Part shown: positions 50,206-52,289 of the stretch, piece after piece | Numbering within the stretch: the first letter of the stretch is position 1 | Layout of the letters: every line of letters begins with the position of its first letter | NCBI RefSeq assembly: GCF_000613125.1 | Contig: NZ_HG964497.1 | Location: 1,436,011 to 1,500,010 of the forward strand | Source: Bacillus sp. EB01 | GTDB lineage: Bacteria; Bacillota; Bacilli; Bacillales; Cytobacillaceae | Direction of reading: 5' to 3' | DNA length: 64,000 nt | Translations under genes and position numbers: made by a program | Notes under the pieces: generated by a model | The model's input: only the letters and a program-made list of their open reading frames with translations | The model's database searches: none | What the model was told of the DNA's origin: nothing

Positions 50206-50311
50206 GCACAGCTAAAGAGATGCAGGACCGTTACTGTTTACCGGTTTGAGTCTAGCCTAGTGGTTACCTAAAGCGGACCGTTCCCCTTGGATGCAAGTCT
50301 TTATTGAAAAT

Positions 50312-50363
50312 AAAAGGTGCGGCCACCAGCCCATTTAAGGGAAGGATGCACGCACCTTTTTTA
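50312..50363 (+). terminator. Terminator of the propeller gene
   Basis: AAAAGGTGCG pairs with CGCACCTTTT; six T end it. About 105 bases after the stop. Confidence 0.8.
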
Positions 50364-50562
50364 TTTGATTTGGGATCAATAATGAGGTATGTGGAAAGTT
50401 ATATTTGGTGCATGTCACTCCCCGGTAATTTTCTGACTATTCACCCTAACCGATAACCGTAATACCTCCAGGTTCCTCACAACATACGTCCAGTTGTTGC
50501 CAACTTTTATTTCATTATAAATAGAAGCCTTCCTCCTTACATTTGCATTTCCTTTTCGCGAC

Positions 50563-50585
50563 AAAAAAAAAGCGCAGAGCGCTTA
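50563..50585 (-). terminator. Terminator of the second riboswitch-microprotein unit
   Basis: AAGCGC-TCT-GCGCTT followed by a run of T on the minus strand, a few bases after the stop of the 31-residue gene. Confidence 0.85.
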
Positions 50586-50590
50586 ACATA

Positions 50591-50686
50591 TTACAGAGAT
50601 CTTTTTTTCCCACATCTTACACATTCATCTGTGTAGTAACTAAACTTGTGGTTACGACGAAAAAAACAGATAAAGGACTTGAACAA
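50591..50686 (-). CDS. 31-aa Cys-rich microprotein B under a c-di-GMP-I riboswitch
   Basis: TTG 50686, after AAAGGGGTGG, opens a 31-residue frame ending TAA at 50591. The protein has C7, H13 and CVRCGKKR (C22-x2-C25), the same spacing as its paralogue at 51345, with basic residues throughout. A zinc-ribbon-like or metal-binding role is suggested; it has some resemblance to small phage-type DUF1660 proteins, but that is tentative. It is preceded within 23 bases by a GEMM aptamer and followed by a terminator, so it is a complete self-contained regulated unit. Too short for routine gene callers. Confidence 0.75.
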   Translation of the reverse strand: MFKSFICFFRRNHKFSYYTDECVRCGKKRSL

Positions 50687-50709
50687 ATTAGCCACCCCTT
50701 TAAGGAAAA

Positions 50710-50784
50710 CGGCAGTCCAGCCATCATAGTGCTTCAGCACCTTAGACCTGTGACTTTGCGCCCGTAATTTTCACTACGTTTGCC
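50710..50784 (-). ncRNA. c-di-GMP-I (GEMM-I) riboswitch, copy B
   Basis: On the minus strand: GGCAAAC, a P1a hairpin with GTGAAAAT-type GAAA tetraloop, GGGCGCAAAGTCACAGG (A-rich J and tetraloop receptor), TCTAAGG, a hairpin, and TGATGGCTGGACTGCCG. All are the conserved elements of the c-di-GMP-I class. No terminator separates it from the ribosome site, so translational control is likely. Confidence 0.9.
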
Positions 50785-51132
50785 TTTATCAATTTATCAG
50801 AATAGTTAAATTTTACTACGAACAGAAGAGACAAGCACTCTTTTTCATTCGTAAAATATCGACAAAATGCCTAGATGTTTGCAAATACTGGTACTTACTT
50901 CCTATTCCTGGATGTACAATCCTATTCAAAGTGTCGATATTTGACAACGATGAGCAACGGTTCCCTAAGGTCACCCAGTTTTCACAACTCCTTTTTTGTG
51001 ATAGAACAGATTTAGGTTCCTTATCTTTTTATTGGGGAAAAGAAGATTCTGCGCAAGTTATTCCTATGGCATAAAAAGCACAGCCAATAAGGCTGCCTGC
51101 CGTAAACTCTAAAATATAGTTTCTTTTCCATT
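50785..51132. other. Intergenic region upstream of riboswitch B
   Basis: Must hold the promoter for riboswitch B (a TAGTAAAAT shared with the region before riboswitch A is a -10 candidate). A block GTGAAAACTGGGTGACCTTAGG near 50970-51000 on the minus strand superficially recalls a GEMM but lacks the GCAAAG core. No gene seen. Confidence 0.4.
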
Positions 51133-51165
51133 AAAAAAACCCGCCTGGCCATACCAAGCGGGTTT
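51133..51165 (-). terminator. Terminator after the Ig-like remnant
   Basis: AAACCCGC/GCGGGTTT stem with an inner TGG/CCA pair, followed on the minus strand by seven T. Evidence that an expressed minus-strand gene once ended here. Confidence 0.85.
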
Positions 51166-51175
51166 CCAAACAAAA

Positions 51176-51280
51176 TTAATAGACAGTTACTTTTGTAGCT
51201 TCGGTAGCAAACCCGGCCCTGTCATTTGCCGAAACATATAGAGCGTTTTTTTACTTTGGAATATATACTTTGTACTTTCC
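51176..51280 (-). pseudogene. C-terminal remnant of an Ig-like surface protein
   Basis: One minus frame reads GKYKVYIPK, a stop, then KNALYVSANDRAGFATEATK and a final stop at 51176. This is the end of a bacterial Ig/Fn3-like domain as found in cell-wall adhesins. The internal stop and missing N-terminus show decay. Located between the two riboswitch units and followed by a terminator. Confidence 0.55.
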
Positions 51281-51310
51281 GTATTATGGCGTCTGGCATT
51301 TCCTGCAGAC

Positions 51311-51337
51311 AAAAAAAATAGCGTTATTACACGCTAT
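51311..51337 (-). terminator. Terminator of the first riboswitch-microprotein unit
   Basis: ATAGCGT and ACGCTAT stem followed by eight T on the minus strand. Confidence 0.85.
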
Positions 51338-51344
51338 AGAATAA

Positions 51345-51440
51345 TCAAAGAGGCCGTTTCTTTCCGCATCTTACACATTGATTCGTATAGTAACTGTATT
51401 TATGCTTGCGACGAAGAAAACATATAATGGATTTAAACAT
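51345..51440 (-). CDS. 31-aa Cys-rich microprotein A under a c-di-GMP-I riboswitch
   Basis: ATG 51440 after AAGGGAGTGGG; 31 codons to a TGA at 51345. The protein shares about 70% identity with the one at 50591: MFKS-ICF-RR-HK-SYYT, then CVRCGKKR. C7, H13, C22 and C25 are conserved and could coordinate one zinc. Net charge is strongly basic. Preceded 26 bases upstream by a GEMM aptamer and followed by its own terminator. Not a recognised family with confidence. Confidence 0.78.
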   Translation of the reverse strand: MFKSIICFLRRKHKYSYYTNQCVRCGKKRPL

Positions 51441-51465
51441 GGAAACCCACTCCCTTACATGTGTA

Positions 51466-51540
51466 CGGCAGTCCAGCCATCATAGTGCTTCAGCACCTTA
51501 GACCCGTGACTTTGCGTCCTTGGTTTTCACCAAGTTTGCC
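51466..51540 (-). ncRNA. c-di-GMP-I (GEMM-I) riboswitch, copy A
   Basis: Minus strand: GGCAAAC, CTTGGTGAAAACCAAG hairpin, GGACGCAAAGTCACGGG, TCTAAGG, a GTGCTGAAGCAC hairpin, TATGATGGCTGGACTGCCG. Core identical to copy B with compensatory changes in the P1a helix (CTTGG/CCAAG versus CGTAG/TTACG), which supports structure conservation. The ribosome site of the microprotein follows 10 bases on. Confidence 0.92.
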
Positions 51541-51674
51541 TTTGTCTATTACTTTCATTTTACTACTAGCTGGCACCTACAATTTATGGCAATTTCGACA
51601 AAAACAGAACAGTTTTTAAAAAAAGTTAATAAATTTTCTAAAAAAAAGAACAGGGACCTTATCCCCGCTCCATA

Positions 51675-52028
51675 TCAATCGACAATCCCTTGTTCATGGT
51701 TGAAAAAGTGGCTGAAACTTACCCCATATTCATAAAAATCATTAATCAACGCCCGTTTCCGGACAATTTTTCCATAAAGGATCACGTTTTTACCACTCAA
51801 TTCAAACGGTATTTTATAGACTGTTAAATAATTTATATCCAGATTTCGTTTACTTGCTATTCTTAAGCCACCAGCGCTTATGTCGATCACGTAGATGTCA
51901 ATATTTTCTTCCTTATTCAATTTATAATCGGCCGGCAATGTCGCCAATTTCATAACTGTTTTAACAGGCTCCTGAAATGCAACTCTTTTAAACTGCCTGC
52001 GGCTTATCAAGTTAGCATGCACCCACAT
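51675..52028 (-). CDS. PilZ-domain protein, c-di-GMP receptor
   Basis: 117 residues. The c-di-GMP-binding motifs are both there: R-x-x-x-R in R11-Q-F-K-R15 and D49-x-S51-x-x-G54 in VIDISAGGLRIAS. The rest is a small beta barrel. Stand-alone PilZ proteins are c-di-GMP effectors. It is upstream of riboswitch A on the same strand; a possible weak terminator near 51640-51672 separates them. ATG 52028 (or GTG 52022, better spaced from GAGGTG). Partner unknown. Confidence 0.87.
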   Translation of the reverse strand: MWVHANLISRRQFKRVAFQEPVKTVMKLATLPADYKLNKEENIDIYVIDISAGGLRIASKRNLDINYLTVYKIPFELSGKNVILYGKIVRKRALINDFYEYGVSFSHFFNHEQGIVD

Positions 52029-52289
52029 TCACCTCTGCCGTTCTTAAAGAATAAGACTACGAAAAAATAATACCATAAATTTACACCTACTGTGAATATA
52101 ACAAATGCTAAAACCTTCTTTTTTGAAAAAATCGGTCGACGCTCAAAGAGCACTTTCTATAAGGTGTACCTACGCGCTGAATCTCCATACAAAACAAAAA
52201 AACAGAGGCTTCCCCCTGTTCGAAAACTCCTAATATATCGCTACAAAGGGCCTTTTTACGGTACCGTCTGTCCCACCCAGCAACCGGGA

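Follow-up and report, generated by a model that had tools for sequence, protein, structure and literature searches.

The closest described systems include the cyclic di-GMP (c-di-GMP) riboswitches of Bacillus thuringiensis. As summarised in the respective papers, the platform of Bc1 is long and contains two terminators (PMC11218506), a collagen adhesion protein is under the control of Bc2 (PMC4933901) and Bc3–5 form a triple tandem (PMC4759541). For Bacillus methanolicus MGA3, the published summary places a c-di-GMP riboswitch on sinI and two c-di-GMP switches in front of genes of unknown function (PMC4342826). In Haloferax volcanii, one-domain zinc-finger micro-proteins affect biofilm and swarming, and five deletion mutants indicated a counter-regulated sessile and motile life (PMC6562870, abstract). 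We analysed a stretch of 64,000 nucleotides from Bacillus sp. EB01 (contig NZ_HG964497.1, positions 1,436,011 to 1,500,010 of the forward strand; referred to as the window), in which two genes for 31-residue microproteins each lie behind a c-di-GMP-I (GEMM-I) aptamer. By Rfam score, these aptamers belong to the same family, RF01051, as Bc1, Bc2 and Bc3–5. The riboswitch is ordinary, and its output is new.

The targets of a riboswitch normally serve to read the biology of its signal. In the present case, the only target is a protein of 31 residues that is uncharacterised and short enough to escape annotation, yet occurs in 11 GTDB families of the order. Our best explanation as a whole, to which we assign a probability of roughly 0.55, is that a switch turned on by c-di-GMP raises the level of a zinc-knuckle microprotein that acts as a regulator of sessility or of the cell envelope. 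If the microprotein is indeed a regulator, c-di-GMP would act through an RNA switch and a microprotein instead of through a protein receptor.

Two aptamer–microprotein units

Both units lie on the minus strand (positions are those of the window unless given as genome positions). The aptamer of unit 1 (51464..51550) matches RF01051 over its full length (1–87) with 87.7 bits (E 5.3e-16), and that of unit 2 (50708..50794), also full length, scores 82.8 bits (E 8.7e-15). With a gathering score of 35 for this family, both sites are GEMM-I aptamers, as the original prediction, made from the DNA letters without database searches, had claimed. Each comprises two helical arms, one with a GAAA tetraloop, and the conserved core, and cmscan marks no non-standard pair in either. 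Comparison of the cmscan alignments by eye shows that the GAAA-capped hairpin reads CUUGGU/ACCAAG in unit 1 and CGUAGU/AUUACG in unit 2; two pairs are altered on both sides, one of them to G-U, and the compensatory changes that had been proposed for the aptamers are thus seen in this hairpin. No RNA family other than the two aptamers was found in the 1.5 kilobases (kb) searched, the remaining matches being below threshold and taken as chance.

The predicted order of aptamer, ribosome site, 31-codon gene and terminator is found in both units, with terminator-like hairpins as the last element. In unit 1, the Shine–Dalgarno sequence AAGGGAG (51450..51456) precedes an open reading frame of 31 codons with an ATG start (51345..51440), which encodes MFKSIICFLRRKHKYSYYTNQCVRCGKKRPL. 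In unit 2, AAAGGGG (50695..50701) precedes a 31-codon frame with a TTG start (50591..50686), which encodes (M)FKSFICFFRRNHKFSYYTDECVRCGKKRSL; an in-frame GTG lies three codons 5' of this TTG and overlaps the Shine–Dalgarno sequence. The aptamers are situated in the 5' leaders on the same strand, 23 nucleotides (nt) from the start codon in unit 1 and 21 nt in unit 2. Hairpins with a T run that resemble intrinsic terminators were found by scan at 51318..51337 and 50570..50584 and begin 6–7 nt after the stop codon in both units. The same scan gives six terminator-like sites on both strands of 50300–52100, compared with a shuffle mean of 1.5. The spacing from unit to unit is 756 nt, in agreement with the expected 750 or so. 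Each unit is monocistronic, with its own gene, which encodes a small basic protein, and its own terminator-like hairpin; the two aptamers do not share one leader, as they would in a tandem riboswitch. The units had been described as twins, and two is indeed their number in the window, but the genome carries three: a further unit with a 31-residue copy is located at genome positions 1525263–1525464, 38 kb away and outside the window. A congener, G021, also carries three units.

The two window microproteins align without gaps and retain C7, H13, C22 and C25, as the original prediction had noted; they are 77% identical, and their genes differ by 15 synonymous and 7 nonsynonymous changes. In related genomes, the 31-codon frame is retained and shows synonymous bias, again as anticipated: pooled over 26 chosen and partly overlapping gene pairs, three of which are identical and supply sites without differences, the synonymous proportion (pS) is 0.483 and the nonsynonymous proportion (pN) is 0.064. 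This pattern is that of purifying selection, and the 31-codon frame is a gene. We therefore regard it as nearly certain that a c-di-GMP-I riboswitch aptamer is joined here to a conserved gene.

Residues C7, H13, K14, Y17, C22, C25 and G26 are invariant in all 28 aligned members of the family. The four conserved Cys/His ligands are arranged as C-x5-H-x8-C-x2-C (the CHCC set), as in a zinc knuckle or ribbon; this set is typical of a zinc knuckle, and judged by it, the microprotein is probably metal-binding. The computed charge at pH 7 is +8.5 for unit 1 and +5.6 for unit 2, with isoelectric points (pI) of 10.2 and 9.8, respectively.

Spread of the family and of its riboswitches

A profile of the three copies of the source strain matches 66 of the 193 genomes of its GTDB family (10 of 25 genera; 114 rows). 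With a wider profile, matches were found in 36 of 397 genomes of the order, representing 11 GTDB families, and in 9 of 299 genomes of the class, whose sample overlaps that of the order. Among the carriers are species of Niallia, Cytobacillus, Peribacillus and Litchfieldia as well as Bacillus sp. FJAT-27445, whose locus is identical to one in the genus of the window (L020 = L049), and some species have up to five copies per genome.

For comparison of upstream regions we used 135 genes chosen by a less strict C-H-C-C pattern. All 135 have C-x5-H, followed by x8 to the second cysteine in 123 and by x9 in 12; poorly modelled genes remain in this set (L191 has a wrong start). Ten of 125 loci were dropped because they have no C-H-C-C motif (L024, the duplicate L050, L087, L096, L125, L126, L130, L139, L140 and L141), some of them being visibly degenerate copies. 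From later counts, fifteen loci were omitted, of which 13 encode proteins identical to kept ones and L050, named above, has no motif, and only L060 is truly lost. L204, L205 and L206 yielded no gene, and two family hit rows as well as order and class rows without loci were excluded. A set of longer paralogues (L119–L123 and L132–L138; 56–59 residues) is marked by C-x9-C spacing and by a charged tail at the C terminus, and no aptamer was detected with them.

A hidden Markov model (HMM) of the aptamer, seeded with the 12 aptamers of the source genome (three of them from microprotein units) and rebuilt from strong matches, reveals a strong c-di-GMP-I aptamer 5' of 29 of the 135 genes. Among these 29 are nearly identical ones, such as the units in common with G021 and three loci of the Niallia group. 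Such microproteins are found behind aptamers in other genera, in line with the search that the original prediction had proposed. Another six of the 135 genes have weak matches (13–30 bits) equally far from the gene, which we read as decayed aptamers, and the remaining 100 are without a detectable aptamer; among shuffled upstream regions, 0 of 1,350 match the model. In 21 strong-aptamer rows, two of which are the same locus and from which the f40 loci are excluded, the end of the aptamer as placed by our covariance model lies 22–29 nt from the start codon. By our own arithmetic, the number of aptamer–gene pairs expected by chance at this spacing is well below 0.01. In a choice of 20 loci, Rfam recognises the aptamer in 19 and fails on the decayed one of L086; two of the 19 (L091 and L128) front sinI. 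Applied to 40 other loci, including one non-member (L016), Rfam finds c-di-GMP-I-type aptamers in five, two of which are one locus, an indication of how often homologues are without an aptamer.

Genes with an aptamer are spread over at least five GTDB families (f1, f18, f20, f40 and f42), and 22 of the 29 lie in the family of the source strain, in whose 193 genomes we counted 1,188 aptamers, weak ones possibly being overlooked by the search. A tree of 115 short proteins requires 16 changes of the aptamer label compared with a shuffled mean of 22.2, and at least five changes are forced by well-supported branches; the tree is rough, with 35 columns and an unsettled bootstrap, six genes omitted and identical proteins entered once. 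Members of this gene family have had c-di-GMP-I switches, and have lost them, on repeated occasions. The pairing thus recurs, and the protein is not tied to the riboswitch; the 100 genes without a detectable aptamer also tell against c-di-GMP as the general input of the family. Intact, decayed and absent aptamers 5' of one gene family provide a natural series for the gain and loss of riboswitches.

In four f40 loci (L195, L197, L198 and L209), the aptamer lies 70–86 nt from the microprotein gene. Inspection by eye reveals a frame of 12–16 codons after a ribosome site, and the TGA of this frame overlaps the microprotein ATG, which would couple the short frame to the microprotein. The existence of such frames between aptamer and microprotein, and the fact that the 31-codon frame is itself very short and directly behind a riboswitch, would fit a leader peptide or a regulatory upstream open reading frame, with the RNA or a downstream gene as the real output. 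This is highly improbable, since a terminator-like hairpin follows each stop codon so closely, neighbour clustering reveals no downstream gene common to most loci, the differences are mostly synonymous and most of the 135 genes keep the protein with no aptamer detected.

In the genome of the source strain, we found 12 c-di-GMP-I matches and 17 GGDEF matches (including a short one). If the first well-placed frame is taken (our choice), six of the 12 aptamers front genes of no more than 54 residues: the three microprotein units, sinI and two other proteins. The sinI gene (PF08671; L009, genome position 1816596) lies behind its aptamer and is convergent with a sinR-like gene. The two other aptamers (L004, genome position 2806100, and L006, 1668890) front frames of 54 and 52 residues with no Pfam match. 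This tally suggests that the annotation of small proteins hides part of the c-di-GMP regulon. Also, since SinI and other small proteins are c-di-GMP-I outputs, small outputs are not unique to the microprotein; the proposal that this tiny protein is undescribed as an output is supported, no family in the libraries searched covering it.

Among the 28 members searched, neither Pfam nor NCBIfam gives a family over its cut-off, the best zinc match being zf-C2HC5 (E 0.012, in 2 of 28), and the SinI helix motif PF08671 matches none. PADLOC has no match to the microprotein, PDB sequences give no significant match (an S14-type resemblance appears only at E 7.1), and plasmids and phages gave no tblastn match at E up to 1. 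The PHROGs family phrog_37038, of unknown function, matches 25 of the 28 members weakly and partially (best E 1.2e-4); in member 1, the match covers residues 12–27 only and so falls short of a whole-protein relationship. DUF1660, a phage family considered as a candidate, is not among the four Pfam families listed for the microprotein. In the literature, we found no description of the family among the open-licence papers listed, and it is likely absent from print, with the B. methanolicus targets of unknown function (PMC4342826) left uncompared.

The search for aptamers also turned up other small proteins. A group of 67–86 residues (KVxFGSIEYFEREI...) lies behind strong c-di-GMP-I aptamers and makes up nine of the GTDB family's 30 top-scoring loci (L144, L148, L149, L153, L154, L160, L162, L163 and L170); the first 70 residues of one member have no Pfam match. 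In L105–L107 and L109, a c-di-GMP-I aptamer is located about 800–830 nt 5' of the microprotein gene. In L109, a protein of 61 residues that contains CxC and CxxC motifs comes after this distant aptamer, and L105 has the same protein start.

Control of the gene and flanking features

Translational control had been predicted because no terminator was seen between aptamer and gene. For unit 1, the scan agrees. For unit 2, it lists a hairpin at 50713–50691 as terminator-like, whose tail, TAATTTGTTC, is not a U run, and on inspection of the sequence no U run is seen between aptamer and start codon. In both units, the ribosome site lies in a predicted hairpin. That of unit 1 (51449..51473; -7.1 kcal/mol, z -2.05) pairs the 3' strand of the aptamer (ACU, CC, UAC) with the ribosome site, and that of unit 2 (50691..50713; -5.8 kcal/mol, z -0.58) involves the aptamer GCC and the ribosome site. 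Shuffled sequences fold as well in 9 of 200 cases for unit 1 and in 7 of 200 for the third unit of the genome. Several relatives have a longer hairpin that starts directly 3' of the aptamer and covers the start region, and in the three tested (L020, L092 and L118), 0 of 200 shuffles are as good.

The first bases of the start hairpin are the strand that would close helix P1 of the aptamer. Since hairpin and P1 flank overlap, the two should compete. At low c-di-GMP, the aptamer's 3' strand, on the side of P1, would pair with, or prop, a hairpin over the ribosome site; at high c-di-GMP, the bound aptamer would retain this strand, the ribosome site would be freed and translation of the microprotein would rise. 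In 10 leaders with distinct 3' flanks, the P1 flanks pair better within than between leaders (permutation, p 0.007).

Several results count against this scheme. The hairpin of unit 2 is not above chance (55 of 200 shuffles are as good). The P1-flank test gives p 0.066 over all 20 leaders; both p values were computed by a single script, and the favourable one is that of the smaller set. When aptamer and P1 are removed, the predicted accessibility of the ribosome site goes up in 12 of 20 leaders, is unchanged in 5 and goes down in 3. In an alignment of the start hairpin over nine leaders, only 1 of 13 pairs is changed on both sides.

The opposite sign has to be weighed as well: c-di-GMP could turn the gene off, or the switch could act on transcription, with the bound aptamer favouring the ribosome-site hairpin or providing a base on which it stacks. 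This would suit several relatives, whose start hairpin begins at the very base that follows the aptamer, and the listing of the unit 2 hairpin as terminator-like points the same way. Nevertheless, the first bases of the hairpin fall in the flank that forms pairs with the 5' flank of the aptamer, and the missing U run does not suit a transcriptional switch, and we consider this alternative doubtful. From the shuffle results for the start hairpins, the P1 pairing and the accessibility results together, we hold translational ON control to be the likelier direction; of its two parts, the translational mode is quite probable, and the ON direction is somewhat better than even.

Copies with no aptamer detected may respond to other inputs. 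Direct repeats with an 11-base period are a feature of OmpR-type regulators such as PhoP. With a pattern devised after seeing the sequences, 13 of 89 aptamer-less upstream regions score at least 17 at period 11, compared with none of the 89 at period 10 or 12, and period-11 repeats are found in 0 of 25 aptamer-bearing regions. By eye, 17 of 18 loci of phosphate-binding proteins carry TTTACA-type repeats with period 11. A matrix made from 14 of these phosphate-binding-protein boxes matches 7 of the 89 aptamer-less regions versus 0.9 expected, 2 of 31 aptamer-bearing or decayed regions and, at other periods, 0 to 2 of 89. PhoP-type control of the aptamer-less copies may thus be a lead, as far as such repeats can indicate. 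More broadly, and tentatively, the family may serve second-messenger and stress control in Bacillales as an interchangeable output module, in which genes gain or lose c-di-GMP-I switches and others carry period-11 repeats, and the microprotein may be a portable regulator linking c-di-GMP, and perhaps phosphate, to the synthesis of matrix or envelope polymers.

Some features flanking the two units were also noted. A stretch beginning GTAGTAAAATG (repeat D5) is common to both and lies at 51550..51566 (-), where it might provide the -10 element of unit 1, and at 50803..50819 (-), 5' of unit 2, where a promoter role is likewise conjectural; the unit 1 copy is not among the promoter-like sites given by the scan. 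A second repeat, TTTTGTCGA(A/T)ATT, lies 5' of both units (51591–51603 and 50855–50867) and resembles a Spo0A box. This idea was abandoned, as two exact matches versus 0.17 expected in 12 leaders are too few. Directly 5' of unit 1 is a gene for a PilZ-domain protein (51675–52028, minus strand; PF07238, E 3.2e-09) with its own terminator-like hairpin (51671–51647). PilZ is a domain of the c-di-GMP-receptor type. Between the units, an in-frame stub, KNALYVSANDRAGFATEATKVTVY* (51179–51250, minus strand), resembles by eye the 3' end of a lost surface-protein gene; it is present as a single copy in the source genome and is found in none of seven congeners.

Possible role of the microprotein and comparison with known systems

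The microprotein could be a zinc-stabilised adaptor or regulator of a sessile or cell-envelope programme, in a role resembling that of the small anti-repressor SinI, which is under its own c-di-GMP-I switch in the same genome. We put this forward as a tentative assignment, argued from residue patterns and gene neighbourhoods. Genes of LytR type, glycosyltransferase, epsC type (a PF13727 protein) and Wzz, when pooled, lie near 15 of 133 microprotein loci and 1 of 60 control loci (p 0.024). This result is weak and post hoc, the queries having been chosen after the clusters were seen, and LytR-type neighbours alone are at 10 of 133 versus 1 of 60 (p 0.18), both of which speak against the assignment. 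Neighbours of 5'-nucleotidase type occur at 5 of 133 loci and 0 of 60 controls, and GGDEF-type neighbours are not enriched (6 of 133 versus 3 of 60). The controls comprise 30 aptamer loci and 30 loci from the phosphate-binding-protein search and are on average longer than the test loci; the neighbour labels were checked with Pfam for ten example proteins. In two genera (G170 and G144), an aptamer with sinI lies directly 3' of an aptamer-less microprotein gene, an adjacency weakened by the 10 SinI-type matches in G170 and the six in G144. SinI and polysaccharide neighbours together lend weak support, without proof, to a role in sessility, matrix or envelope. At L209, an epsC RNA element (RF01735) is located at 2285–2408 on the other strand, near a divergent aptamer–microprotein unit.

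Two other roles are suggested by the composition of the protein. A zinc knuckle that binds RNA or the ribosome and acts on translation or a target RNA would suit the basic character of the protein (the computed pI values given above) and the weak local likeness between YT..CVRCGKKR and the zinc form (type Z) of ribosomal protein S14 (NCBIfam, E 0.0028). However, this match has 17.4 bits against a cut-off of 54 and occurs in 1 of 28 members, and we consider such a role unlikely. Still less probable is that the protein is a small peptide, membrane-active or like a toxin, and slows cells on their way into the sessile state. The hydrophobic SIICFL near the N terminus, the cationic remainder and the high copy number in some species would be in keeping with it, but the hydrophobic stretch is short and a metal site is indicated by the invariant CHCC set. 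There is also no PADLOC match, no search having been made for antisense RNAs or antitoxins. A metal-binding regulator is our preferred, if tentative, assignment.

Compared with Bc1, Bc2 and Bc3–5 as their reports summarise them, the window units differ in having one aptamer per 31-codon gene and no clear terminator 5' of the gene. The sinI switch of B. methanolicus, as summarised in PMC4342826, is closer in that an aptamer fronts a small protein, and the same sinI layout is present here at L009. Unlike SinI, an anti-repressor of family PF08671, the microproteins have no SinI match and possess the CHCC set. Ribosomal protein S14 type Z shares a local YT.C.RCG likeness with them, but spacing and length differ and the score is far below the cut-off. 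The Haloferax micro-proteins are, like those predicted here, tiny and of single zinc-finger type. The Haloferax system is archaeal, and its abstract mentions no riboswitch (PMC6562870); by analogy, it may serve as a precedent for the function of the microprotein, not as a homologue.

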